Source of the DNA: Promethearchaeota archaeon
GTDB lineage: Archaea > Asgardarchaeota > Thorarchaeia > Thorarchaeales > Thorarchaeaceae
Assembly: GCA_014728035.1 (NCBI GenBank)
Contig: WJMJ01000028.1
Location: 1 to 39,409 of the forward strand
DNA length: 39,409 bases
Reading direction: 5' to 3'
Shown: piece by piece, positions 1,921-39,289 of the stretch
Numbering within the stretch: position 1 is the stretch's first letter
Layout: each line of letters starts with the position of its first letter
Position numbers and translations under genes: made by a program
Notes under the pieces: generated by a model
Told to the model about the DNA's origin: nothing
What the model saw: the letters and a program-made list of their open reading frames with translations, nothing else
Database searches by the model: none

Positions 1921-4900
1921 TTAACCAACTACACATACTGATGTACCACAGTCTTTACACGTCATACAACCCTCTTTATGGTCGATATTAACTGAACCAC
2001 AGTTCTCACATGTAACATCCGATAGAAATGCGTCACGGAAACAACCATCTCTAAATATTGTCATCCCCTTACAACCGGTCACAAATCCCTGAATGATGAT
2101 AGACTTTACATCTTCAATCGTGGCCTCGTTTGGCATGTTGATGGTCTTTGATATCGACATTTCAACATGTTCTTGTACAGTTACCTGCATTCGAACATGG
2201 TCTTGCGGTGATATCTCACTGGCTGTGATAAATACATTATATTTCTCTGGTAGTTTGCCCTCTTTAACCAAGGTTCGAGGGGTCTTTCCAGTTGAAATCA
2301 TCTCACTCAATATATCTTCTAATCCATCTTCTTCTAATTGTTTCTTGAAACTCTGAGCAACAACAATCGCTGGTGGTTTACCTTCTCTGTTCATCTGATA
2401 TGCCATACTGAAGAACGGTTCTATACCAGAACTAACACCAGCAATGAATGAGATTGATCCTGTTGGAGCAATAGATGTTATGGTTCCATTTCTTCGTGGT
2501 AATCCATCACCAGTCTGCCATGCTGGGTAAATTCCATCTATATCTTTGAGTCTTATACTCTCGTTCAATCCTGTTGACTGAAGATATGATATTATCTCAC
2601 GGGTTACCTTGATAGCCTCATCACTTCCATATGTGATCCCCATCATCGCTAATACATCAGCGAGTCCCATCATACCAAGACCTATCTTTCTTGTTTCTTT
2701 TGCAGCTCGTTCCATCTGTGGTAATGGATAGTTATTCTTATCGATGATAGAGTTAAGCAGTTGAACTAATGTTCTGATGGTCTTTGATAGTTTCATATAA
2801 TCTATCACCCATCTATCATTCGTTTTCTTTATATGTTCCATCAGGTTTACAGAGGCTAGACAACAACTCTCCCAATAATATAATCCAGTTTCACCACAGT
2901 TTCGTATAATAACACCAGTTTGTCGTGTAGTTGATTCGAGATTTGTCACAACTGCATAATTATTATATCTTGGAACTGTTAAATTGAATACATCTTGTTT
3001 ACCAATATATTCAATTGATAATACTTTACGGTCATCTTGTTCATCAAAATTACAATGCTGTGAAATAATATCACTATCACGATTATAATATTCTGCAATC
3101 ATTTTATGTTCTGGTAACCATCGTTGTTCTCTCTCGTTTGTACTAACTGCCCAATATTTTGTTGATTTTCTTTTTGGTGAATATTCGCAGCGATTAAATG
3201 GCATGAGAGAATCACCTTTGTTTAACTTGTCAACTCTCACATACTCACCAGTTCTAAGCATCATTCTGTGGTTTGCTGTAACATCTAAAGATGAACCATC
3301 ATTAAATGTCACTCTATAGACTTCAATATCATATCCAGTCTTTCTTGGGGCAACAGCCGTTTCAACTACAATTCGTTCGCCATTGAATGAATAGACGGGT
3401 ACTTGTTTACCATCTTCAGCTAACTCTCTTATAGGAACTTGTCCTCTACCATCTGCAACAGCAATAAGTGTATCACCAGTAATACATGGATTTACACCTT
3501 GAATGTTTCCCATCGATGGAGTGGTGTTGCCACGTTGAATAGTATCCCAATATAATACACCTGGTTCTCCATTTGTCCACATCGACTTTGTTATCCTATG
3601 AAATAGATCATTGGCGGACATTGCTGGTCTATCAGCCTCAATCATTGGATCATAAGCCGGAAATGGTCTGCCGTTTCTTGGATTTATGAATACAATCTCA
3701 GCATTACGTTCTAACTTATCAAAGAACTCATCTGTTAATCCAATACTGATATTAAATGTGGATAGTTCTCCATCAACATCCTTTGCATGTAACCAGCGAA
3801 GAACATCGGGATGGTCATATTTTAAGATACCTATATTAGCCGCACGTCGTTTTCCACCCTGTTTTATCACTTGTCCAACCACATCAAACATCCTAAGAAA
3901 ACTAACAGTACCAGAAGAGGTTCCACCGGTCTTTTGAATGATATCTCCAGTTGGTCGTAGTTTAGAGAAGTTCATGCCGGTATTGTGTACAGCAATAAAA
4001 GACGAACTACCAGCAAGATAATTCTCATATTTATCAACAGTGAAGTCATAAAACGATTTTTCTTCTTTGATATGTTCTATCTTCTTTATCTTCGTTTTTC
4101 TACTGATTGTGAACCTTTCACCACGATGTTGTTTTACCGTTGGAAATAACTTTGTCATTGATGTTGGGAATGTAACTTCTGCCCATGTTCCTCTGATTTC
4201 ATTATCGGACTCTAGGTTATTACGTTCTCGTATGGTACTATTCACCCCAATCAACGATAAATGTCTCGATATACATTCAGCCATTTCTCTATTCTTAGTT
4301 GAAATACCACTTTTTCCATTACCGATATACCCGTCTGAATCAATTAATCCAGCAATGAACGCAAACGGATTTGGACATAAGAAACCAAGTGGTGGTATTT
4401 GTTTAGATTGAGTAATATCAGAGTTTAGATTAATTACACGTTTGAAAAATCTTTGTGCTTCAGAATTTGCATTACCATGTTTACTATCTACTACACATGT
4501 AATCTGAACACATGACAGACCTCTATCATCAGTATATAGATTACCAGATGAACCTGTATATCGCATGAAAATAGATTGTACTCGTTCTAACATGTCTTTC
4601 TTTTTATCATAAAATCTCAATCTAACTCCCTGTTTTCCTTCATCGATACTTCCATTTCCAAGAAAATATCCATACAACCACCAGAAATCTGGTTCATCAT
4701 TTATAAATAATCTATCAAATATTGATGGCGTCAAGATATAATCATTCTTACTTAATTCATCTGCTCGTTTTTCTATTATCTTGTTAAACGTTAAACTATT
4801 ATTTTTTCTCCATACTAGAAACTTATGCCAAGGTGTTACTTCTATCATACCATGATTACCAAAATGAACACGATAATATTCATCTTGTTTAAATCTCCAT

Positions 4901-5373
4901 AGGTGTGTTACTGTTCCGTGAGTAAATGTACTAGAATGTTTGTCGAATGAAAATACGGTGAAAGGAGTACATTCGTATGGTTGTTCATCTTCAGGAATAT
5001 CATTAAAAGTAGGTATGTTTTCAATTGGAATGAAACCAAATTCATGTGTTGGTATAATAGTACCAGATGCACAACATCCGCCACCATGTTTTTGAATGAT
5101 TGCGGTTGACTTTACAGCCTCCATTATTCCTTCCAAATCATCAGGAAGAGGAACAAGATTACAGGCTGATAAATAACCCGATTCTAGTCCACTGTTCATC
5201 AGTGTGGGACTATTTGGTAGTCCTCTACAGTTTACTAATACGTCATAATAATCTTTGAACTGTTCAGGTGTGTCAGCATGAAAGTCTGCTACACGACAGC
5301 ACATCTTTTCCCAATCCTCGCCTGGTTGGAAGTATCGTTCTTTTAAGAAATCTTCTGCTATATGATTAACCAT
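1921..5373 (-). CDS. nrdJ: Class II (adenosylcobalamin-dependent) ribonucleotide reductase with two inteins
   Basis: The precursor is 1150 residues. Removing inteins at residues 100-464 and 630-825 leaves an enzyme of about 589 residues that reduces ribonucleotides to deoxyribonucleotides using a cobalamin-generated thiyl radical. Extein motifs visible: GLPNSPTLMNSG, GGG/TGMNFSKLRPTGD (split by intein 1), KQGGKRRAANIGIL, and NP/CGETG (split by intein 2), where the Cys and Glu are the radical-site residues. SCCLASVNL follows. The C-terminus CENCG...GCMTCKDCGTSVC is the zinc-ribbon/redox tail typical of NrdJ (TIGR02504-type). No small-subunit gene (nrdB) or activase (nrdG) is present, which fits class II. 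A GGAG Shine-Dalgarno lies about 10 bases ahead of the ATG. It follows thyX on the same strand with a 72-bp gap containing an inverted repeat, and probably supplies dNTPs for viral replication. Confidence 0.93.
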   Translation of the reverse strand: MVNHIAEDFLKERYFQPGEDWEKMCCRVADFHADTPEQFKDYYDVLVNCRGLPNSPTLMNSGLESGYLSACNLVPLPDDLEGIMEAVKSTAIIQKHGGGCCASGTIIPTHEFGFIPIENIPTFNDIPEDEQPYECTPFTVFSFDKHSSTFTHGTVTHLWRFKQDEYYRVHFGNHGMIEVTPWHKFLVWRKNNSLTFNKIIEKRADELSKNDYILTPSIFDRLFINDEPDFWWLYGYFLGNGSIDEGKQGVRLRFYDKKKDMLERVQSIFMRYTGSSGNLYTDDRGLSCVQITCVVDSKHGNANSEAQRFFKRVINLNSDITQSKQIPPLGFLCPNPFAFIAGLIDSDGYIGNGKSGISTKNREMAECISRHLSLIGVNSTIRERNNLESDNEIRGTWAEVTFPTSMTKLFPTVKQHRGERFTISRKTKIKKIEHIKEEKSFYDFTVDKYENYLAGSSSFIAVHNTGMNFSKLRPTGDIIQKTGGTSSGTVSFLRMFDVVGQVIKQGGKRRAANIGILKYDHPDVLRWLHAKDVDGELSTFNISIGLTDEFFDKLERNAEIVFINPRNGRPFPAYDPMIEADRPAMSANDLFHRITKSMWTNGEPGVLYWDTIQRGNTTPSMGNIQGVNPCITGDTLIAVADGRGQVPIRELAEDGKQVPVYSFNGERIVVETAVAPRKTGYDIEVYRVTFNDGSSLDVTANHRMMLRTGEYVRVDKLNKGDSLMPFNRCEYSPKRKSTKYWAVSTNEREQRWLPEHKMIAEYYNRDSDIISQHCNFDEQDDRKVLSIEYIGKQDVFNLTVPRYNNYAVVTNLESTTRQTGVIIRNCGETGLYYWESCCLASVNLMEHIKKTNDRWVIDYMKLSKTIRTLVQLLNSIIDKNNYPLPQMERAAKETRKIGLGMMGLADVLAMMGITYGSDEAIKVTREIISYLQSTGLNESIRLKDIDGIYPAWQTGDGLPRRNGTITSIAPTGSISFIAGVSSGIEPFFSMAYQMNREGKPPAIVVAQSFKKQLEEDGLEDILSEMISTGKTPRTLVKEGKLPEKYNVFITASEISPQDHVRMQVTVQEHVEMSISKTINMPNEATIEDVKSIIIQGFVTGCKGMTIFRDGCFRDAFLSDVTCENCGSVNIDHKEGCMTCKDCGTSVCVVG
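2899..3486 (-). other. NrdJ intein 2 (mini-intein with degenerate HNH remnant)
   Basis: Residues 630-825 of the precursor (196 residues). It starts with Cys (CITGDTLIAVADG, block A) and ends GVIIRN before Cys+1 of the extein CGETG. The block B-like TANHRMML and the C-terminal region DVFNLTVPRYNNYAV are present. The insertion is exactly before the catalytic Cys of the NPCGE motif. There are no LAGLIDADG blocks. The middle holds LPEHKMIAEYYNRDSDI and ISQHCNFDEQ, which resemble eroded pieces of an HNH endonuclease. The penultimate residue is Arg rather than His. Boundaries were placed by rejoining NPC-GE and checking the reading frame. Confidence 0.85.
3982..5076 (-). other. NrdJ intein 1 with LAGLIDADG homing endonuclease
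   Basis: Residues 100-464 (365 residues). It begins CCASGTIIPTHE (Cys1, Thr6 as in block A) and ends SFIAVHN followed by Thr+1. Rejoining gives GGG-TGMNFSKLRP, which matches the usual class II RNR sequence; this decides which of the two adjacent Cys is residue 1. Two LAGLIDADG motifs are present: LYGYFLGNGSI and FIAGLIDSDGYI. Block B is TPWHKFL and block F is SFYDFTVDKYENYLAG. It should be splicing-competent and probably nuclease-active. Confidence 0.9.
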
Positions 5374-8591: not shown

Positions 8592-9692
8592 ATGTTTGAT
8601 GACCCAGACATACCACATCATCCTAAGATTTTCGGTGTAAAAATCGGTAGTAAGTATACTGTTATCACTGATGGTGAAACAATCAGAAAGGAAGTAACAG
8701 TTATTCGCCGACGCCCCGTTGATCTCAAAGGTAACTATGAATATAATTTTAGTCGTCAGGCTGAGGGATGGAGCGATAGTCTATACCCCCTTAAACAGGG
8801 AGTTCCCCGTAATGACTCATTGATGTCAATTGCGGAGTCTATCAAACTAACATCTGCTTATACAGAATGGTTATTACAAGACATTCCAGACAAAGCAGGT
8901 GTCGTTGTATGCCTTCCACTCATTCGAGACCATGAAGGACTTAGCGCTCTCAAGACGGCAATCAGGCAATCCACTCCAGCTGAAAAAGGACTTCAGTTCT
9001 TTTCTGAAGCATGGGGTGCAGCATTAGGAACACTTCCAATCAGAGAGGCTGTTGGTACAAATGTATTAACAATGAACTTTGGTAGCTCAACTGTTGAGGT
9101 AACAATGCACGCCTCGAAGGTGTTAGTAGAATCAAATGTATATACATTTGGTGGAAGTGAGATTGATCGCAGACTTATCAATGCCATTGAACAATCCCAT
9201 CGAGGAACCAAGGCAACCGAGTCTGACGCACGAGCAATCAAAGAACAATATAGTTGGACAGAGAACAATGACGTTCCAGCAACCCTATCGAAAGAAGGGG
9301 CAAAACATGAACTTGTTATAGCTGGTGATATCATTCGACCAATCGTATCAAATGCTATCGATCATCTTGTTCATCTTATCAGAACTCAGTTCCTGCGTTC
9401 CGCTGAGATGAGTGATCCAGAAGCAGTTGGTTCATTACAAGGTTCTGGTAGAGGATATCTAGTTCTATGTGGTGGTATGGTCAACATGCCAGGTTTCGCA
9501 AAAGAACTATATGATAGACTCATCGAGATTGGAGCCATAAATGAATCAGTGATACTTGCAGTTCCAGAGGATGGTGTTATTGCACCAGCGATTGGAGCAT
9601 GGAAGGTTGGACAGGTTCTTGAAGACGCAAGACAAGAACGAAATGTTGATTCTTGGGACCGTATGGTCGATGAATCAGTAGATACAGAGTGA
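8592..9692 (+). CDS. Actin-like (MreB/ParM-type) protein with altered nucleotide motifs
   Basis: A 366-residue protein matching the actin/MreB fold in order. Residues 138-152 SEAWGAALGTLPIRE correspond to the MreB SEPMAAAIG...EA segment. VLTMNFGSSTVEVTM (158-172) is the phosphate-2 strand-loop, GGSEIDRRLINAI (188-200) the following helix, and YLVLCGGMVNMPGF (about 296-309) the adenosine motif. Both phosphate-loop aspartates are replaced: the N-terminal DxG position reads VKIGS (Lys17) and phosphate-2 reads NFGSS (Asn162). Filaments may therefore form without normal ATP hydrolysis. It is the first gene of the packaging block and is coupled to a coiled-coil gene, as plasmid/phage actins often are to an adaptor. 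Possible roles: genome segregation, positioning of replication, or a virion scaffold. Confidence 0.75.
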   Translation: MFDDPDIPHHPKIFGVKIGSKYTVITDGETIRKEVTVIRRRPVDLKGNYEYNFSRQAEGWSDSLYPLKQGVPRNDSLMSIAESIKLTSAYTEWLLQDIPDKAGVVVCLPLIRDHEGLSALKTAIRQSTPAEKGLQFFSEAWGAALGTLPIREAVGTNVLTMNFGSSTVEVTMHASKVLVESNVYTFGGSEIDRRLINAIEQSHRGTKATESDARAIKEQYSWTENNDVPATLSKEGAKHELVIAGDIIRPIVSNAIDHLVHLIRTQFLRSAEMSDPEAVGSLQGSGRGYLVLCGGMVNMPGFAKELYDRLIEIGAINESVILAVPEDGVIAPAIGAWKVGQVLEDARQERNVDSWDRMVDESVDTE

Positions 9693-9985: not shown

Positions 9986-10486
9986 ATGAGGACGTTTTTT
10001 GAGGTTATCTCGACTGTTAACCGTTGGTTACGTCAACGATATTCCTCTACGTCCTCAACACCACGTATATTCTGGAATCAGATAATGGTGGTACTTGGTA
10101 TCATCATGTTGAAACAGGAGAACATCGCTCCTACACTAGGGAACCTAGAACGATATACTCCTGTTCCAAAATCATCTATCTATCGAACACTTAAGGTGTT
10201 AGAAGAAGAATCTATCCTGATTCAGAAAGAAGACAAATCATATGGATTCTATGGTGAAGTGCCACAAGATATATTAGAACTTTCCACAAATAGAACACCT
10301 GTAGAACTAGGTGGACTTGTTGAAGAGATTGAATCTGCTATGAAAAAACAGATGAAACAAATGCTTCAAACTCTACCTCTACAACAAGACCAAATCGAAC
10401 AGGTGTCGAAACGCATTGATACCATCAAACCCGAGAAGAAGGAACTTGATGCCTTATCGAGCCTCGTTGGAGATGGTTTCATGTGA
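9986..10486 (+). CDS. Winged-helix protein
   Basis: A 166-residue protein. Residues 25-90 fit a winged helix: a hydrophobic first helix (FWNQIMVVLGIIMLKQ), then LGNLERYTPVPKSSIYRTLKVLEEESILIQKEDKSYGFY, where SSIYRTLKVLEEE is the recognition helix as in PadR/MarR-like proteins. The C-terminal third is helical (VEEIESAMKKQMKQML). A strong GGAGG precedes the ATG. It sits ahead of the terminase genes, so it may be a regulator of late genes or a DNA-recognition component of packaging. Confidence 0.6.
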   Translation: MRTFFEVISTVNRWLRQRYSSTSSTPRIFWNQIMVVLGIIMLKQENIAPTLGNLERYTPVPKSSIYRTLKVLEEESILIQKEDKSYGFYGEVPQDILELSTNRTPVELGGLVEEIESAMKKQMKQMLQTLPLQQDQIEQVSKRIDTIKPEKKELDALSSLVGDGFM

Positions 10487-10498
10487 GGCACTACAGTT

Positions 10499-11464
10499 AT
10501 GGAATCACACCACGTGGAATTCATTGGACACGACGGACAGACATACCACTACGACACACGTATCAGAGATGATAGTGTAGCTGGTCATCCAGTTAAGATG
10601 ACCAGTTTTCACTCCGTCGTTGATCCACATTGGAGTACATCATACCTACTTTTAGTACAACAGGCAGAACGAGAGGCTCGACATGAGATATGTGGAGCAG
10701 AGACCCAGAAAGGTTCTCCTTGTAAACAATATCCATTAAAATTAGAAGATGAACCGTATCCAGATGAGATTGGTCGTTGTAGTAGACATAGACCTTCAAT
10801 GAAAAAAGAAGAACCTTCTTCACCACCACCAACTTCTATCGCCTTATCTCCGTCTCGTTCTCCACCACCAGCACCAACTGACTCTCGACTTGCTGACACC
10901 CTGATGGATATAGCAGACGAGCATTTCTTCTTACGTTGTCAGGCATGTATCAACAGGGTACAATGTGATGAGAGGGGAGGAGCCAACGATATATGCATGA
11001 AGGAAAAACGTCTCTTCCAACAGTTGTTGGTGGAGATGATAGAGACATATGACTTGGAAGATGTGGCTGATTATTTCACATCAGTGAGTGTAGTAGACAC
11101 GATGATAAAAATAATCAGAACAAGTGCATATGAGGGTCAGTACGGAATCATTGAGTCCATAAACTCCGGTAATGCGCAATATAACATCCATCTGAAGAAA
11201 CTATTGAACAGCACCCTTAAACTACTTGGTGTTGATAGAAAGACCAGAATCAGTGTGAGACATAAGAGCGGTAAGGTCGAGATGTTCTCAGGTAGTATTG
11301 CAAAGGCTCTAGCCTCAGCAAAGATCACAGACGCTGAGGTTATAGACGCGACCAAACAGATGGAAAAGGATATCAAAATGGAAGAACCAAAGGGAACCAG
11401 AAAGGGCCCAGCTGTTGGTATCCATGGTAAAATTATAAAGGATGATGAACCTATTGAGTCCTAA
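10499..11464 (+). CDS. Probable small terminase subunit (TerS-like)
   Basis: A 321-residue protein whose end overlaps the large terminase start by 23 bases, the usual place for TerS. Residues 63-98 form a zinc-binding unit, CGAETQKGSPC...GRCSRHRP (C65, C75, C94, H97), of the CGAxTxxGxPC type that I associate with phage packaging-region proteins. A Pro/Ser-rich linker (101-128) follows. A helical C-terminal domain with a second Cys group (FFLRCQACINRVQCDERGG) and a basic tail complete it. TerS recognises viral DNA and loads TerL. The assignment rests on position and the zinc motif, not on full-length recognition. Confidence 0.5.
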   Translation: MESHHVEFIGHDGQTYHYDTRIRDDSVAGHPVKMTSFHSVVDPHWSTSYLLLVQQAEREARHEICGAETQKGSPCKQYPLKLEDEPYPDEIGRCSRHRPSMKKEEPSSPPPTSIALSPSRSPPPAPTDSRLADTLMDIADEHFFLRCQACINRVQCDERGGANDICMKEKRLFQQLLVEMIETYDLEDVADYFTSVSVVDTMIKIIRTSAYEGQYGIIESINSGNAQYNIHLKKLLNSTLKLLGVDRKTRISVRHKSGKVEMFSGSIAKALASAKITDAEVIDATKQMEKDIKMEEPKGTRKGPAVGIHGKIIKDDEPIES

Positions 11465-14165
11465 GAAGAAGAAAAAAAAATTAGAAGAGAATATAGAGCT
11501 GACGGCAGAGCTCATCGCTCGGGTGAAGAGAGACCCTGTTGCGTTTGCTCGTATATTCTGTAAATTTTATCCTCATTGGTACCAAGTCAAGATTCTTCGT
11601 GATATGTCAAAAAATATCGCGATACGGATGGGAAGACAGATGGGTAAGACAGCTGCCACTGCAATCAAGGCACTGTGGTATGCATTCACCCGTCCTGAAG
11701 CTTCAACACCACAGGAACAGGTGACCATTGTAATCATCGCTCCATCCCAACGACAGAGTAAAATCATGTATAATCAAATCAGGTCTTATATTCATGCTAA
11801 CCCTATACTTGAGGCAAGTGTCATCAAGAGTACACAACAGACAATCAAACTTGATAATAATTCTGTGATATACAACTTTCCAGTAGGCGACTCTGCTGAA
11901 AAGGTACGAGGATTCTCAATCAATCTACTCATCGTTGACGAGGCCGCATTTATCAAGCAGAGAATCTTCACTGCTATCCTACCTTCACTAGCTGGAACGA
12001 ATGGAAGTCTTATTCTCATCGGAACGCCTGCCTCGCGAACAGGCCTATTTTACCAAGCGTTCTATCCAGGTAAAGACGGTAGTGGTGTAAAGTTACGATT
12101 CAGTACTCATTGGTATCCATATTCTGACGCTTTAGATGTACAACGTGTTGATAAAAACGGTGTACCATTGTTTGATAAAGATGGTAATCCTATAACACAA
12201 TTATCGCGTGACTGGATTGAATATCAATACACAAGTATGAGTAAGGGAGAGTTTGCCCAAGAGTTCGAGGCAAAGTTTGTTGATGAGAGTCTGGGATACT
12301 TCACACGAGAAGACCTTATTGCTAATGTTGAAGACTATTCAATGGAACATGTACATGATGGTGAGAGTGTATATGCTATGGGTGTTGACTTTGCTAAATA
12401 TCATGACTCCTATGTAGCACTGGTCATCAAACGAGACATAAATGGTATCACTAGGGTTGTATATACTCTAGAGGCACGAAATAGAAACTATTCTGAGACC
12501 GTACCATTGACCATCAAGATTGCAAAACGATTCAGATGTCGTTATGTATTCTGTGATAGTACCGGTGTCGGTGAACCAAATGCTGAAATCATAGAGAAGG
12601 AACTAAAGGGTATATCAATTGTCAAATCAGTCAATATGAGTAGTCTTCAGAAACAGATAGATATGTATTCCAATCTTCAACGAATGTTTGGTGAAGGGGT
12701 ATTGAAGATACCAGCTTCGAATCGTGAACTCATCAGTCAGTTGTCGTTGGTGATGAGAACAATAACACCAAGTGGACGGGTAAAGATTGAAGCAGCAGAA
12801 GGACAACATGACGACTTTTGTTTTGATGGTTCAACAAAGGTTCAAACAACAAACGGATATATAGATATTAGTAAGATCAAAAAAGGTGATATAGTATTAA
12901 CATCGTCTGGTCATAAAAAGGTTATCAATACGTCAGAACGCGAGATTAATGAACTTGTCTATAGAGTGAAAGTAAAGGGAAGACCAACATTTACTTGTAC
13001 AAAAAATCACCCCTTTAAGACAGTTGATGGTGATTTTGATATAATTGATAACCTTCAATACTTGCGAAAGGATTTTATTAAACTTAATGAACGAAGATTC
13101 ATTGATTTGGCTGAAATCCAATATGATGAAGGAAAACACGGGTCAAGCAAGATTATAGTAAATGAAGATACTATCTCTTATATGAATGGTAGATTAACGA
13201 CACTACCAAGATATATACAACTTGACTATGATTTTGGGTTTATCATCGGAGCATATCTAGCAGAAGGAAGCATTGGTGCACATGACATACAATTCACATT
13301 GAATAAAACTGATGACCCCTTAATAGAAATAATAAAAGAAAAATTCAAGAATGTGTTTGGTTGTGAATTGAGCTATATCGAACATGATAATAATTCTTGT
13401 AATCTATACAAGAGTTCATTGATATTAAGAAAATTATTCAAAACATTAATACCAGGAATTTCATCATCAAAGAGGATACACCCACTACTATTCTCAAATA
13501 AGGATTTCCTACGTGGATTAATTGAAGCCTACTATAAGGGCGATGGTTGTATTATTAATAATGGAAGAGGATTTTCTGTTTCAACAAATAGTTTGAATCT
13601 TGCATATCAAATTACTGATATATTGAACCTATTTGGTATTTATGGTAATATTCACACTTCACATAGAAAAGGAAAGTCAATGAATCTTCATGAACATAAA
13701 TATACCCATAATCATAACTTACACCAGATACGTATTTCAGGTTCATGGTATGTCAATAAGTTTATTGATTTATTTTGGAATGAATATGAACATATATCAG
13801 ATAATAAATTTCATTATTGTAAAGAGAAATGGTATGATGATTTCGTACTTATTCCATTCAAGAAGAATGAAATAGAATATATCGGTTCTGTATATAACTT
13901 ATATATTGATGACGTGAATGAATTCTCAATTGGTTCAGCTACTGTACATAATTGTGACGCATTAGCCTTAGCATGTATGATGACTGTAAATAATCCCAAT
14001 CCTCCAAAGACATTAGCTACATCAGTAAAGAGTGTTTTCTCTAAGAAAACACATAGGCATACCGCAACCACACCACAGAGAAGAAGACAACAGACACCAT
14101 ATAGACAAGTAGCAGTGTTCGATGAGAGAGGACGAATAATAGGAACTAGAACAGAACAACGGTGA
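11442..14165 (+). CDS. terL: Terminase large subunit with intein
   Basis: The precursor is 907 residues and the spliced protein about 529. It is the ATP-driven DNA packaging motor and nuclease of tailed viruses. ATPase: GRQMGKT (64-70, Walker A), LLIVDEAAF (162-170, Walker B with Glu167) and LIGTPAS (coupling motif). RNase H-like nuclease: GVDFAKYHDS, FCDSTGVGE and HDDF/CDALALA, giving the Asp triad. The intein splits the third nuclease motif. The N-terminus carries a poly-Lys stretch (PKKKKKK). Start ATG 11442 lies in the end of the TerS-like gene after AAGGATG, so the two are translationally coupled. The C-terminal 40 residues are basic and low-complexity. Its presence identifies the replicon as a head-tail virus or provirus. 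Confidence 0.92.
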   Translation: MMNLLSPKKKKKKLEENIELTAELIARVKRDPVAFARIFCKFYPHWYQVKILRDMSKNIAIRMGRQMGKTAATAIKALWYAFTRPEASTPQEQVTIVIIAPSQRQSKIMYNQIRSYIHANPILEASVIKSTQQTIKLDNNSVIYNFPVGDSAEKVRGFSINLLIVDEAAFIKQRIFTAILPSLAGTNGSLILIGTPASRTGLFYQAFYPGKDGSGVKLRFSTHWYPYSDALDVQRVDKNGVPLFDKDGNPITQLSRDWIEYQYTSMSKGEFAQEFEAKFVDESLGYFTREDLIANVEDYSMEHVHDGESVYAMGVDFAKYHDSYVALVIKRDINGITRVVYTLEARNRNYSETVPLTIKIAKRFRCRYVFCDSTGVGEPNAEIIEKELKGISIVKSVNMSSLQKQIDMYSNLQRMFGEGVLKIPASNRELISQLSLVMRTITPSGRVKIEAAEGQHDDFCFDGSTKVQTTNGYIDISKIKKGDIVLTSSGHKKVINTSEREINELVYRVKVKGRPTFTCTKNHPFKTVDGDFDIIDNLQYLRKDFIKLNERRFIDLAEIQYDEGKHGSSKIIVNEDTISYMNGRLTTLPRYIQLDYDFGFIIGAYLAEGSIGAHDIQFTLNKTDDPLIEIIKEKFKNVFGCELSYIEHDNNSCNLYKSSLILRKLFKTLIPGISSSKRIHPLLFSNKDFLRGLIEAYYKGDGCIINNGRGFSVSTNSLNLAYQITDILNLFGIYGNIHTSHRKGKSMNLHEHKYTHNHNLHQIRISGSWYVNKFIDLFWNEYEHISDNKFHYCKEKWYDDFVLIPFKKNEIEYIGSVYNLYIDDVNEFSIGSATVHNCDALALACMMTVNNPNPPKTLATSVKSVFSKKTHRHTATTPQRRRQQTPYRQVAVFDERGRIIGTRTEQR
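12819..13952 (+). other. TerL intein with LAGLIDADG endonuclease
   Basis: Precursor residues 460-837 (378 residues). It begins CFDGSTKVQTTNGYIDI and ends SIGSATVHN before Cys+1. Block B is CTKNHPF. The endonuclease blocks are FIIGAYLAEGSI and LRGLIEAYYKGDG. Rejoined exteins read GQHDDF-CDALALA, restoring the conserved metal-binding Asp motif of the terminase nuclease. Boundaries are in frame at both ends. Confidence 0.92.
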
Positions 14166-33328: not shown

Positions 33329-34132
33329 TCATGTGTTCTGCCGTACGGCTATATTTTTCAATCGACTAACAATAAATGGTAACATCCAGACATCGTTCTC
33401 ATTATAAGCAAATACATTAGGATCTAACGGCTCTCGAAATATTGCATGTCGTTCATAATGTTCTGCACATTCCTTACCATCCATATAATCATCACGAGCC
33501 TCTAATGACATGTCATATCCAAGAAACCGTGCCATTGTCTTAAGCTTTCTATTCTTTGTTGGTAGATAATATGATTTACGAAGCTCATAACATATATCTT
33601 GTTCAGGCTGAGTAAATATTGAATGTTCCATCAGACCATTCCTTGCACATGCATTTTGGGTCACCCTTACATCAAACCCGTTACATGAATAATACATGAG
33701 CGGTCTTCCTGGTCTCACTGATAAAAATTCATCGAATCGCTGTAACATATAATATTCATCGTTCCATGAATCAGCAAAGAAACTGTAAAACTTCTTCTCC
33801 TTGGCATCCACAACACCGATAAGCCAAATCTTGCTCCATTTTAAATCAGTCTCAATATCAAACCATAATGGATAACCAGGTAACCATCTCGGGTCTCGAC
33901 GTTTTATGACCAGATGGGAACAGTATTGTGCTGTATGAATGATGTTCACCATCATATCATGTGATATACCAAGCGACCTAGCAATAGCAATAGGATTCTC
34001 TGCTTCAATGATTGATCCAATCGTAGTATAACCTTTATCATGTAGTCGTTGTACTGCGGAACGAGTGATTCCACCTTTATCACTCTCAAGTAGAGTGAAT
34101 ATAGAATCCTCGCACGCCATCTTGATTGTCAT
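33329..34132 (-). CDS. DEDD-type 3'-5' exonuclease (RNase_H_2-like) with N-terminal HhH
   Basis: 267 residues. The N-terminus (about 22-58, ITRSAVQRLHDKGYTTIGSI then ARSLGIS) is a helix-hairpin-helix-like nucleic-acid-binding unit. The exonuclease motifs are WFDIETD (Exo I, Asp and Glu), YYSCNGFDV (Exo II Asp) and YNENDVWML (Exo III Asp), as in the predicted RNase H-fold exonucleases of the YprB/RNase_H_2 group. The substrate may be RNA or DNA. It lies directly downstream of the Ro60 gene on the same strand, 80 bp away, with a terminator-like hairpin and its own TATA (minus TTTATATTA, 34154-34162) between them. Given what Ro60 does in bacteria, a partner exonuclease is an attractive reading. 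Confidence 0.75.
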   Translation of the reverse strand: MTIKMACEDSIFTLLESDKGGITRSAVQRLHDKGYTTIGSIIEAENPIAIARSLGISHDMMVNIIHTAQYCSHLVIKRRDPRWLPGYPLWFDIETDLKWSKIWLIGVVDAKEKKFYSFFADSWNDEYYMLQRFDEFLSVRPGRPLMYYSCNGFDVRVTQNACARNGLMEHSIFTQPEQDICYELRKSYYLPTKNRKLKTMARFLGYDMSLEARDDYMDGKECAEHYERHAIFREPLDPNVFAYNENDVWMLPFIVSRLKNIAVRQNT

Positions 34133-34212: not shown

Positions 34213-35808
34213 TTATTCTTTATTCAAGACATAATCAATATAATCAAGGACAGAATTATTCCATCCAAAGATTTGAATGATATCATATTCTTCTCGAACG
34301 TCTTCAGGAAACGGTTGTGAATCATATGAATCTATTCGGATTAAAATAGCTTTGGCCATCGGGAACTTACGTTTGTAGGTCTTCCACCAACCTAACCATC
34401 CATCACCAAATTCGATGGTATCGGTAATCCAAATCAGTGTATCGAATTGTAATCGGTTCCACCGTTTTGGTCTCTTGGTACCTCGTACTGCCAAACTACG
34501 ATTATATCCATGAGCACTTTGTCCATCTATATGTCCGTTCAACATATATTTTAATGGTAGTTCCATAAATGTTCCACCACCACCAGTTCTCTTCACCGCT
34601 TCAGTCATTGAAATGATTGAATCATTCTTTGGTGGAGCAGTGTATAGTGATGTTGACCATGGAAAGATATCCGATTCTTCAATCCCTTTGTATAGTACGA
34701 CACCAAATAACGCAGCGATGTCGATATATGCTAGTGAACTTTTATTGAAGTTCAGTGTCATTGAACCTGATACGTCTGGACAGACTGCTACTCGCCCCCA
34801 ATTAGTGAAATCATACTTTGGTAGGAATTCTTCCATGACACTCGCAAGACCATTTCGAAATCTTGTGCTAGTGATTTGTTGAAAGGCTTGAAACACCCTG
34901 AAAGGAAATACCTTCGCCTTTAACAGGTTCTCAGCACTGATTCGACCATCTTTTCCTAACAAGAAATCATAGACTTCATCGTCCTTATCAAGATCATGAC
35001 GTTCGAATGTTGCTAGATGTCTTAACAATGCAAATACCCCCATCTGTCTCATCATTATCTTCCATAGTTCGGGAGATTTTGGGAGCATTGATAGTACAGA
35101 ATAATCTAGTCTCCCTTTCTTGATAAGTCGTTCAACATTATCAAGATCAGTAGGATCAATCTGTTTTATCTCTTCAAACGCCTGAAGTTTCTCAAGTTCA
35201 GGTGGAATCTCATATTCTTCATCCTTCCATTTATTATCATACTTACGCATGAGATATTGAATGATTTTGAATGAAGTATCATCAATGTCTTCTTCTGAAG
35301 GTCTTGATACTCTGATACCTCGTACAACCTCGTTACCATACTTAATGGCATAAAACTCACTCAGTTTTACCTTTAACCATTCTTTGATGGCTCGTTTGAT
35401 TCCACGACCAAATCCTCTACCTCGTGCCTGTCTTGCGTCCATAAAATCTGATAAATCGTTACCAGTTCTGATAACATCATTAAAGATACGTTGAGCAGTT
35501 TTAATGTCTTTCTCAGATAGAATAGTTAGTGCAAGGATAGGCATAGTTCGCATGAATCCATCGTTTCGAGCAATGGGAACCCATTTCTCAAGTAAATCAA
35601 CCGGTGCACGTTCTAACAACTCAACGGCTTCTCTAGTCATCTCATGTTTACCTGCATAATAAACCTTCTCTAATCTCCCTGTATGAAGTAATTGAATCAG
35701 TCTATCTTCATCATTCATCTTCCATGCTGGGAAATTTTGCTTGTTCTTAGTATCAGCCGTTGCATAGGTAGCAGGACTGATATCTAGTTCTTTAAATTTC
35801 TTTGGCAT
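34213..35808 (-). CDS. rsr: Ro60/Rsr orthologue (TROVE + VWA), Y-RNA-binding protein
   Basis: 531 residues, the usual Ro60 length (about 538). Residues 25-330 are the TROVE HEAT-repeat ring: RLIQLLHTGRLEKVYYAGKHEMTRE (36-60) is the signature opening, and ARGRGFGRGIKRAIKEWL (128-145) the conserved basic segment. Residues 337-531 are the VWA domain with an intact MIDAS: DVSGS (D345, S347, S349), GGGGTFMELPL (Thr413) and WITDTIE. Ro60 proteins bind Y RNAs and the ends of misfolded or structured RNAs. In Deinococcus, Rsr with a Y RNA guides exonucleases. A GAGGTGA Shine-Dalgarno precedes the ATG. A structured RNA gene (35831-35952) ends about 25 bases upstream on the same strand, a second copy lies at 36560-36712, and a DEDD exonuclease gene follows. 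The orthology is strong; the role here is inferred. Confidence 0.93.
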   Translation of the reverse strand: MPKKFKELDISPATYATADTKNKQNFPAWKMNDEDRLIQLLHTGRLEKVYYAGKHEMTREAVELLERAPVDLLEKWVPIARNDGFMRTMPILALTILSEKDIKTAQRIFNDVIRTGNDLSDFMDARQARGRGFGRGIKRAIKEWLKVKLSEFYAIKYGNEVVRGIRVSRPSEEDIDDTSFKIIQYLMRKYDNKWKDEEYEIPPELEKLQAFEEIKQIDPTDLDNVERLIKKGRLDYSVLSMLPKSPELWKIMMRQMGVFALLRHLATFERHDLDKDDEVYDFLLGKDGRISAENLLKAKVFPFRVFQAFQQITSTRFRNGLASVMEEFLPKYDFTNWGRVAVCPDVSGSMTLNFNKSSLAYIDIAALFGVVLYKGIEESDIFPWSTSLYTAPPKNDSIISMTEAVKRTGGGGTFMELPLKYMLNGHIDGQSAHGYNRSLAVRGTKRPKRWNRLQFDTLIWITDTIEFGDGWLGWWKTYKRKFPMAKAILIRIDSYDSQPFPEDVREEYDIIQIFGWNNSVLDYIDYVLNKE

Positions 35809-35830
35809 TTATGTCACCTCACGCCCACGT

Positions 35831-35952
35831 CAAAATAAGTATCTTCTAGGATAGATATATTGACGGGGATTTAGGGGTTGTATGGTAGTAAATATCGGAT
35901 CTCCCGACGAGTGTTACGTACACGAAGTAACCATACAATGGACCCCGACAAT
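35831..35952 (-). ncRNA. Candidate Y RNA 1 (structured RNA beside Ro60)
   Basis: Predicted RNA of about 120 nt. Ends pair: AUUGUCGGGG (35952-35943) with CCCCGUCAAU (35868-35859), one mismatch. After an internal loop a second stem forms, UUGUAUGGU (35938-35930) with ACCAUACAA (35886-35878), 9 bp. Inside are small hairpins: GUGU/ACAC (35911-35923 region) and UCGG/CCGA (35896-35908 region). The 15-nt motif GUAUGGUUACUUCGU (35936-35922) is identical in RNA 2. A TATA (35972-35979) lies about 26 bases ahead of the first paired base. A 3' hairpin UAUCU/AGAUA (35840-35857) followed by UUAUUUU gives a terminator. End-paired stem, internal loop, second stem and variable inner domain is the Y RNA plan. 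Alternative: a regulatory leader of the Ro60 mRNA. Confidence 0.7.
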
Positions 35953-35971
35953 TATTATAGTATCTCAAACC

Positions 35972-35989
35972 CTTATATATTTTTTGTTA
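35972..35989 (-). promoter_or_regulatory. Promoter of structured RNA 1
   Basis: Minus strand reads TAACAAAAAATATATAAG. It matches the RNA 2 promoter at 16 of 18 positions and lies the same distance (about 20-22 nt) from the first base of the RNA structure. The A-rich part would be the BRE region and TATATAAG the TATA box. Confidence 0.65.
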
Positions 35990-35998
35990 TAGAAAACT

Positions 35999-36454
35999 TT
36001 ACACCTTGAGGGCGTCTCCAACACTCATAGTGATTTCAAAATTATCAAGTAATTTGACTATCTTATCCACCTTCTTTTGAATACCATTGATTCTCTTCTC
36101 AATCTCACTGAATTTATATTCAAGGGTATCCTTTTTAGCTAACCAATCAGGATGAAGATTACTAAGAAGATCATATATTTCAGTTGGTTGTGGAACATAT
36201 CGCTTAGCGAACTCTTTATCAACGATATCTTTATACAACTCACCAGTATCCCAGATTGATATATTATCAATGGTAATAGAGAAAAAATCGATGAGTTCAC
36301 TTGTCTTACGTCTCTGTACGAACCTTGTTACTGCATCTATGATATCATCTTTCTCTTTTTTCTTTATATCATAACTAACAGATTTAGGCATATCAAGATA
36401 ATCTGCTACCTTTCTCAAAACTTCTTCATGGCTATTAAATTCATATTCAGTCAT
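35999..36454 (-). CDS. Unknown protein flanked by the two structured RNAs
   Basis: About 151 residues from ATG 36454 (MTEYEFNSHEEVLRKVADYL...); a GTG at 36466 is the alternative start. It is mostly helical. The C-terminal 50 residues form a coiled coil (YKFSEIEKRINGIQKKVDKIVKLLDNF). No family recognised. It has its own TATA (minus TTATAAAG, about 36489-36496), overlapping a short palindrome at 36478-36488. It sits between structured RNA 2 and RNA 1, upstream of Ro60, on the same strand, so it may belong to the Ro60 ribonucleoprotein system. Confidence 0.6.
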   Translation of the reverse strand: MTEYEFNSHEEVLRKVADYLDMPKSVSYDIKKKEKDDIIDAVTRFVQRRKTSELIDFFSITIDNISIWDTGELYKDIVDKEFAKRYVPQPTEIYDLLSNLHPDWLAKKDTLEYKFSEIEKRINGIQKKVDKIVKLLDNFEITMSVGDALKV

Positions 36455-36477
36455 CTTCGGAATCACTTCCTAATCAC

Positions 36478-36488
36478 ATCACTGTGAT
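36478..36488. promoter_or_regulatory. 11-bp palindrome at the promoter of the unknown gene
   Basis: ATCACTGTGAT, a perfect 5-bp inverted repeat around T, lies directly downstream of the minus-strand TATA and is followed by two more ATCAC half-sites (36462-36476). It is positioned like a repressor operator. Confidence 0.5.
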
Positions 36489-36559
36489 ATCTTTATAAGA
36501 ACCAGAATGAATATAATATTTCTGATATGATACAAAAAAGGTGAAGAACAGACGATGAC

Positions 36560-36712
36560 AAAAAAATATCTCTCCAGTCGTATTATTATTATCGCCTGAT
36601 ATCTCGAAATAAGTTTTACGTCCGTTCTTCAATGATGATACAGAGGATTAGATTCGTATGGGCTTATATTCCATTTCATTAGACGAAGTAACCATACGGA
36701 AGACCTCTGTAT
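36560..36712 (-). ncRNA. Candidate Y RNA 2
   Basis: Predicted RNA of about 150 nt. Outer stem AUACAGAGG (36712-36704) pairs perfectly with CCUCUGUAU (36646-36638). After an asymmetric internal loop, CGUAUGG (36698-36692) pairs with CCAUACG (36661-36655). It carries the same 15-nt motif GUAUGGUUACUUCGU (36697-36683) at the same place as RNA 1, although the outer stems have different sequences, so the pairing is conserved by compensatory change. The TATA (36735-36742) places the transcript start on the first base of the outer stem. A 3' hairpin CAGGCG/CGACUG (36598-36574) and U7 (36566-36560) make a terminator. No open reading frame of note lies in it. Confidence 0.7.
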
Positions 36713-36734
36713 ATAATCATATGTAAACCAAAGT

Positions 36735-36752
36735 CTTATAAAGTTTTTGTTA
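36735..36752 (-). promoter_or_regulatory. Promoter of structured RNA 2
   Basis: Minus strand reads TAACAAAAACTTTATAAG, matching the RNA 1 promoter at 16 of 18 positions. It overlaps a 17-bp palindrome, TTTTTGTT-A-AACAAAAA (36744-36760), lying between this promoter and the divergent SLOG gene, a plausible operator shared by both. Confidence 0.65.
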
Positions 36753-36778: not shown

Positions 36779-37240
36779 ATGATGAAGATTGGAATTATTG
36801 GAAGTCGAAGATACCGAAATAAAACCTTTGTAAAAAGGGTCATAAACCTATTACCATCTGATACAAGAGTCATATCAGGAGGGTGTGATGGTGTAGATAC
36901 ATGGGCAGTACAATACGCGAAAAAATTAGGTCTCAAGACACATGAATTCATCCCAGAATTTCAGTCCCGTGAGGCGTTTTTCAGCAGAAACAGACTCATC
37001 GCCATCAACACCGATGTTCTTATCGCCTTCATACCGCTTGGACAGATGAGAAGCGGAGCGTGGAATACCATCAACTATCAACGAGAATTCAAGAAACCCT
37101 ATGTTGTCTTTGATGAACATGGTGATACATGGGATAGGGAATGGAAAACAAAGACCTTGATAAAACTCATAAACATCCATGAACAATGGACTCAAATCCA
37201 ACAGAAGATACATAAGGAATCTCGACGTATTACATCATGA
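36779..37240 (+). CDS. SLOG/DUF2493 (YpsA-like) Rossmann protein
   Basis: 153 residues. It opens MKIGIIGSRRYRNKTFVKRVI and continues RVISGGCDGVDTWAVQYAKKLGL. GSR near the N-terminus and SGGxxGVD are the nucleotide-binding signatures of the DUF2493/YspA-SLOG family (LOG/DprA-related), which are thought to bind nucleotide-derived ligands. The remainder (DVLIAFIPLGQMRSGAWNTIN) is the second half of the fold. A strong AAGGAG precedes the start; ATG 36782 gives the more typical N-terminus. Substrate and pathway are unknown. It is transcribed away from structured RNA 2. Confidence 0.75.
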   Translation: MMKIGIIGSRRYRNKTFVKRVINLLPSDTRVISGGCDGVDTWAVQYAKKLGLKTHEFIPEFQSREAFFSRNRLIAINTDVLIAFIPLGQMRSGAWNTINYQREFKKPYVVFDEHGDTWDREWKTKTLIKLINIHEQWTQIQQKIHKESRRITS

Positions 37241-39039: not shown

Positions 39040-39130
39040 TGGCGCCACCGACACGATTCGAACGTGCATGTCATGTTTCAGACGACGGTTTTCAAGACCG
39101 CTGGGATAGCCAATTCCCCGACACGGTGGC
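39040..39130 (-). tRNA. tRNA-Ser (TGA), CCA encoded
   Basis: Type II tRNA with acceptor GCCACCG/CGGTGGC, discriminator G and CCA. Anticodon arm GCGGT-CTTGAAA-ACCGT (anticodon TGA). Long variable arm, and T-arm with a normal loop TTCGAAT. It lies 3 nt upstream of tRNA-Asp. Confidence 0.9.
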
Positions 39131-39213: not shown

Positions 39214-39289
39214 TGGAACCTCTGGTGGGAGTTGCACCCACTTACTTTTCCTTACAAGGGAAACGCATTTCTCCATATGCTTCAGAGGC
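39214..39289 (-). tRNA. tRNA-Thr (TGT), CCA encoded
   Basis: Acceptor GCCTCTG/CAGAGGT (a G-U first pair), CCA encoded. Anticodon arm TTTCC-CTTGTAA-GGAAA (anticodon TGT). D-arm GCAT-ATGGAGAA-ATGC. The T-loop is TGCAACT, with G at position 55 instead of the usual T. One base separates its CCA from tRNA-Asn. Confidence 0.88.

Follow-up and report, generated by a model that had tools for sequence, protein, structure and literature searches.

Animals and some bacteria are known to have Y RNAs, and the locus described here raises the question of whether a virus of archaea also carries them. The stretch analysed (the window) is a whole contig of 39,409 bases from assembly GCA_014728035.1, an Asgard-type bin (97.9% complete, 8.5% contaminated) through which the viral host is assigned by binning; on its minus strand, a gene for the protein Ro60 is preceded by two candidate genes for short structured RNAs. 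The original prediction, made from the letters of the DNA, had seen here a virus-encoded Ro60 with two Y RNA-like genes, an observation that is confirmed by the present analysis and whose interpretation is largely supported. Ro60 and the two adjoining RNAs are predicted to form a viral Ro60-Y RNA particle that directs RNA to decay or storage, a reading we consider probable, and the strongest support for its Y RNA component is the comparative sequence evidence from other Ro60 loci.

Ro60 and two adjoining candidate RNAs

The features on which the argument depends are as follows.

34213..35808, minus strand: Ro60 homologue of 531 residues with TROVE ring, vWA domain and intact metal ion-dependent adhesion site (MIDAS), from sequence relatives, alignment and predicted fold
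35859..35952, minus strand: RNA1, candidate Y RNA core, from the shared core and a covariance model match
36638..36712, minus strand: RNA2, candidate Y RNA core, from the shared core, a covariance model match and its fold (z -4.4)
35972..35988, minus strand: TATA-box-like, promoter-like module of RNA1, AACAAAAAATATATAAG, a repeat found before both RNAs
36735..36751, minus strand: TATA-box-like, promoter-like module of RNA2, AACAAAAACTTTATAAG, the same repeat
35828..35864, minus strand: hairpin that overlaps the RNA1 end and precedes the ro60 start (z -4.4)
36535..36637, minus strand: region after RNA2, then a T-rich stretch, with 13-base arms (36542-36554/36619-36631) and a loop containing a T7 run

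Judged by its sequence and predicted structure, the 531-residue protein is Ro60, full-length as originally described. The TROVE ring and the vWA domain that follows it span the entire chain, the best relatives are 47-43% identical, the MIDAS residues of the DxSxS...T...D pattern (D345, S347, S349, T413 and D463) are invariant, and the predicted fold agrees with solved Ro60 structures along the chain. The relatives examined were the best 80 of 584 in a scan of genome contigs; an initial scan of viral contigs with the window Ro60 alone gave no match.

Each RNA has paired ends, an internal loop (4-5 by 8-10 bases), a second helix and a variable inner domain, the architecture that had been proposed for it. 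In RNA1 the outer stem, AUUGUCGGGG/CCCCGUCAAU, contains one U-U mismatch and leads through the loop to helix 2, UUGUAUGGU/ACCAUACAA, the motif UUACUUCGU and two small inner hairpins, while RNA2 combines the outer stem AUACAGAGG/CCUCUGUAU with helix 2 CGUAUGG/CCAUACG and the same motif. An identical 15-mer, GUAUGGUUACUUCGU, is common to the two, and GTATGGTTACTTCGT is exactly shared between about 35859-35952 and 36638-36712. Within their common structure 90.6% of cells pair, compared with 30-50% when the pairing partner is shifted by 1-3 columns, and 4 of the 16 pairs differ between the two RNAs at both positions. RNA2 is much more stably folded than its shuffles (z -4.4, 0/200), and the minimum-energy fold of RNA1 is Y-like within 35832-35952.

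The claim that each RNA has its own promoter stands as far as the repeated module is concerned: AACAAAAA-N(3)-TATAAG has two occurrences in the window, one ahead of each RNA, which end 25 and 27 bases ahead of GRGGTC; the upstream stretches of 36 bases are 78% alike. These modules are putative archaeal TATA promoters. As for the terminator hairpins that had been claimed, RNA2 is followed by a stem and T-runs, and the region 36535..36637 is possibly the 3' end of its transcript. The case of RNA1 is weak, being a hairpin by the ro60 start that lacks a T-run and competes for the 3' strand of the RNA1 outer stem; a role in processing, in termination or as a leader is possible.

The same core beside other Ro60 genes

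The same plan is found upstream of many related Ro60 genes, where GRGGU, a short loop, helix 2, a motif ((U)UACUUCG, UUCAACG or CUACAUCG) and an inner domain, often with tRNA-like sequence, are followed by the second strand of helix 2, a longer loop and the closing strand of the outer stem. Such Y-like cores lie on the Ro60 strand at loci of Freyarchaeota, Chloroflexota, rumen bacteria and other viruses. A strict descriptor yields 46 matches on the Ro60 strand versus 1 opposite within 1.5 kb (29 of 98 loci), and 12 versus 3 beyond that distance; in the window it finds exactly RNA1 and RNA2.

A covariance model (R1), constructed from 24 RNAs of other genomes and none from the window, ranks RNA1 first (24.1 bits, E 0.0034) and RNA2 second (21.2 bits, E 0.014) when the 39.4 kb window is searched with filters off, the third-ranked match reaching 13.4 bits; these E-values are rough, owing to a short calibration. 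Over 49 loci (the 30 best genome loci, L044, 16 viral and 2 Asgard), R1 returns 45 matches at E<=0.05, every one of them on the Ro60 strand, spread over 24 loci; 24 of these matches, some of them near-duplicates, lie outside the training set. In a further 580 kb from 49 genome loci that are more distant, searched with default filters, R1 gives one weak match (13.9 bits, E 7.9), and a search of the window's own whole genome, which returned nothing despite both RNAs being there, carries no weight. Both RNAs thus lie near ro60 on its strand, possess paired ends, internal loop, helix 2 and variable inner domain, and share their core with RNAs beside other Ro60 genes, the features by which Y RNAs were recognised here.

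These comparisons bear directly on the reading that the two structures have nothing to do with Ro60 and are products of chance or repeats at the DNA level, such as promoter or replication elements. The promoter-like repeat is common to both copies in addition to the core, and 25 of 500 shuffles match the pairing of the RNA1/RNA2 common structure, which comprises two sequences; however, a model built from RNAs outside the window ranks both first and second, and simulated windows rarely contain two descriptor matches (2 of 400, with a mean of 0.08 matches). Already disfavoured, this explanation is now very improbable.

RNA1 ends about 50 nucleotides (nt) ahead of the ro60 start codon, the corresponding distance in relatives being 18-1194 nt (median 137, 23 loci, start codons set by script), and the window RNAs sit on the same side of ro60 as their counterparts do. 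Each structure also lies upstream of a same-strand open reading frame (ORF), and the 3' strand of the RNA1 stem can switch into the hairpin that ends near the ro60 start, an arrangement expected if both structures were cis-acting 5' leaders, with Ro60 binding and regulating its own mRNA (and that of the 155-residue ORF between the RNAs) through a Y-like stem and no free Y RNA being made. We regard this as unlikely: at other loci several cores are found, as far as 1.2 kb from ro60 and in many cases continuous with tRNA-like sequence, which fits RNA genes, and a gap of 171 nt separates RNA2 from the next ORF, with a stem and T-runs of its own behind it. For RNA1, a leader role is retained, given how close it lies to ro60 and that a hairpin competes with its stem.

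Several observations weigh against the Ro60-Y RNA reading. Trimmed to 35862-35949, RNA1 does not fold clearly better than its shuffles (z -1.6, 12/200), and the trimmed core alone adopts a non-Y-like fold that uses the inner CCCC; in longer stretches the minimum-energy fold is again not Y-like, as the 3' strand pairs with the downstream hairpin. Rfam models match neither RNA: no Y RNA reaches the gathering threshold on the window, and at E<=10 the RNA region gives chance matches alone and no Y RNA (on 14 and 4 related loci, tRNAs alone). Of the Xenopus Ro60 residues that we take to bind Y RNA (K170, R174 and H187), the alignment keeps one of three, K170 being the invariant K156 here, while R174 aligns with E160 and H187 lands in a gap. 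Ro60 was also not found in any of the 10 searched records of terminase-related viruses (10 of 80 loci), which may be fragments, and would accordingly be no more than an accessory gene. With respect to the comparative evidence, the descriptor motifs, ACTTCG among them, were picked after the window had been seen, and it is for this reason that the covariance model was built from non-window RNAs; R1 is itself not fully independent, its training RNAs having been chosen by pairing and the same motifs, and with default filters it misses RNA1 at E<=0.1. The 24 training rows are 95.5% paired, with 112 two-sided changes versus 36.5 after shuffling, counts that lean towards structure because the rows were chosen by pairing. 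Finally, GRGGT..GTTACTTCG occurs solely at these two places in the 4.33-Mb assembly, a count that alone proves nothing because a reversed control pattern also matched twice; the core pattern of the window had 0 matches in viral contigs.

The training set was drawn from 35 near-Ro60 RNAs, two of them from the window, of which 28 non-window rows were left once four identical copies and L083 10203 had been removed. R1 used 24 of the 28 (omitting L023, L006 4157, L008 4961 and L016 1702); L051, L058, L021, L008 4821, L027 5748, L029 and L004 706 were set aside as poor fits. The distance from the GRGG anchor to the motif end was fixed at 22-24 bases, dropping rows that include L005, L010 248 and L027 5441 (span 25), and the ACATCG class, of which R1 finds no member, was omitted. 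Alignments of full RNAs or of untrimmed ends lost register on the 3' side and did not enter R1. The core, consisting of GRGGU, helix 2 and then UUACUUCG or UUCAACG, mostly with a span of 22-24 bases that is fixed partly by selection because the row script demanded it, can serve to search for Ro60-linked RNAs that escape Rfam.

Circularly permuted Y-like modules were also observed, in which the helix 2 return strand, CCUC, a short closed loop, GAGGUG, helix 2 and the motif follow one another. They lie near Ro60 in Herpetosiphon and relatives and in Sigynarchaeota, some inside tRNA-like genes, at L018 (4827, 5053, 5393, 5686, 5850), L025 5782, L044 (5325, 5737, 5882), L015 (4518, 5123, 5844) and L099 (949, 1313); Rfam calls L025 5703-5810, over one such module, a tRNA. 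A script with eye-picked motifs found 20 near Ro60 on its strand and 0 opposite, and by our judgement about 14 of the 20 are genuine, the rest overlapping ordinary Y cores or resembling chance. In the 315-kb viral contig L083, tRNA genes come after Ro60, and Y-like cores lie both between these genes and beyond them (10203-10347 and 11175-11243).

The predicted particle and its known relatives

Because the predicted stems and the motif of its RNAs match those predicted next to Ro60 in other microbes, the virus probably produces a Ro60-Y RNA particle of its own. Each RNA would attach to the exterior of the Ro60 ring through its outer stem, internal loop, helix 2 and UUACUUCG motif, and the variable inner domain would likely gate the ring hole or tether a nuclease, such that, in the infected cell, structured or damaged RNA may be sent to decay or storage. 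That the RNAs are transcribed and bound, that they gate or tether, and which RNAs are targeted are the parts of this reading that we infer. The combination of one core with different inner domains suggests that one Ro60 serves two tasks or partners, and the Ro60-Y RNA contact is directly testable with one 531-residue protein and two RNAs of less than 100 bases. In two studies, Ro60 orthologues hold the lower stems of Y RNAs on the ring exterior, and the Deinococcus Y RNA tethers Ro60 to PNPase (PMC4726728, PMC7790460).

The original prediction had seen a dedicated ribonucleoprotein in the RNAs, Ro60 and neighbouring genes; two adjoining genes on the same strand are the following.

33329..34132, minus strand: RNase H-fold (PF13482) gene, next downstream of ro60 (E 6e-18)
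35999..36466, minus strand: 155-residue ORF between the RNAs, with a weak match (E 4e-4) to a PHROG of unknown function

This proposal is conjectural: the ORF between the RNAs is an orphan, a homologue search finding none beyond itself, and the RNase H-fold gene is linked by adjacency. The RNase H-fold protein carries FDIETD, NGFD and YNEND segments, which we take to be DEDD-exonuclease-like motifs; a sequence search of the PDB gave no informative match. It could be the viral nuclease partner of Ro60, for which it is the nearest candidate, and PNPase, RtcB, RtcA and RtcR were not found among the window ORFs scanned. A more far-reaching proposal is a two-headed RNA-decay machine, in which Ro60 and two interchangeable Y RNAs would tether the adjacent DEDD-type nuclease against host or damaged RNA during Asgard infection, as an archaeal counterpart of the Deinococcus complex, and which would place Ro60-Y RNA particles in archaeal lineages near the eukaryote root; we consider it doubtful.

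The closest functional parallels are bacterial. The Deinococcus radiodurans Rsr-Y RNA-PNPase complex (RYPER) likewise pairs Ro60 with a Y RNA whose stem is held by Ro60 and whose remainder is free for a nuclease; the window differs in having no PNPase among the scanned ORFs, an adjoining RNase H-fold gene of presumed role, and TATA-like modules. The Salmonella rsr-yrlBA-rtcBA operon also unites Ro60 with two Y RNAs at one locus, whereas the window lacks RtcB, RtcA and RtcR among the scanned ORFs and its RNAs have no tRNA-like domain detectable by ARAGORN or Rfam, in contrast to the YrlA type. The single bulged C with a three-base bulge opposite, which marks the vertebrate type (Rfam Y_RNA), is likewise absent. 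The window system is very likely of the Ro60-Y RNA kind, outside both the vertebrate and YrlA subtypes.

The missing tRNA-like domain also bears on the possibility that the Y RNAs act mainly as decoys or tRNA protectors against host anticodon nucleases, with Ro60 merely stabilising them. Six tRNA genes lie 2.5-3.6 kb from ro60 in the window (five called by ARAGORN, five by Rfam), tRNAs are also found near Ro60 in Gordonia phage Neville and in Halogranum tailed virus 1 (HGTV-1), and a decoy role has been proposed for YrlA (PMC7790460); with no tRNA-like domain detectable in either window RNA, we think such a role improbable, and prefer a particle that directs RNA to decay or storage.

Among viruses, Ro60 homologues are encoded by Thermus phage phiLo (solved structure 9l5y), Gordonia phages and Myxococcus phage Mx1, but are 21-28% identical to the window Ro60 by tblastn, and in the 3 kb around the Mx1 and Neville genes R1 gives no convincing match. 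TROVE proteins are mentioned for a subset of jumbo phages (PMC7824862). The original prediction held that no such system was known from an archaeal virus, which agrees with the literature searches as regards the RNAs but not the protein: HGTV-1 gp129 is annotated 'RNA-binding protein, TROVE domain', and TROVE proteins are mentioned for the Borg archaeal extrachromosomal elements (PMC11208441, PMC9605863). They differ from the window in that the available sources mention no Y RNA for either, and R1 finds no convincing Y RNA near gp129 (best 15.2 bits, opposite strand). The nearest likenesses are a Freyarchaeota locus (L002) and a viral contig (L082), both within the R1 training set, each with two upstream Y-like RNAs and with Ro60s 40% and 39% identical to that of the window; L002 shares GUUACUUCG but lies on a 342-kb contig of an archaeal metagenome-assembled genome (MAG), and L082 has the UUCAACG form of the motif. 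Viral contigs with Ro60 and Y cores are L082 and L083 by R1, and L084/L085 by the descriptor alone. In the open-licence literature, as far as its accessible text extends, no paper describing Y RNAs from archaea or their viruses was found; by these searches the window, very likely a virus-encoded Ro60-Y RNA system, provides the first evidence, at the level of sequence, for Y RNAs in an archaeal virus, and together with the Freyarchaeota locus it extends such evidence to archaea and a virus binned with them.

The viral contig and its other genes

The contig is, by its gene content, a tailed-virus (Caudoviricetes) genome or part of one, an assignment that follows from the large terminase, genes for ribonucleotide reductase, ThyX, DNA polymerase, helicase, dUTPase and C5-methylase, and the six tRNA genes.

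11442-14165, plus strand: large terminase subunit (TerL) with an intein-like insert, the gene that identifies Caudoviricetes

Relatives of TerL number 13 on other contigs (84-64% identity), one being labelled an archaeal MAG protein. LAGLIDADG domains are found in the intein-type inserts of both the terminase and the ribonucleotide reductase (1921-5373, minus strand). PADLOC reports nothing beyond weak DEDDh and ShosA matches. Two of the tRNA genes, at 39040-39130 and 39217-39289 (minus strand), are each called by one program, one by ARAGORN only and the other by Rfam only. Divergent from RNA2 is a SLOG/DprA-YspA-like gene (36779-37240, plus strand), and Myxococcus phage Mx1, too, has a YspA-like SLOG gene (L109 1583-2341), which lies 0.6 kb upstream of its Ro60. 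The contig additionally encodes an actin-family protein at 8592-9692 (plus strand), with matches to Salactin (PF25229, E 6e-27) and MreB (3e-9).

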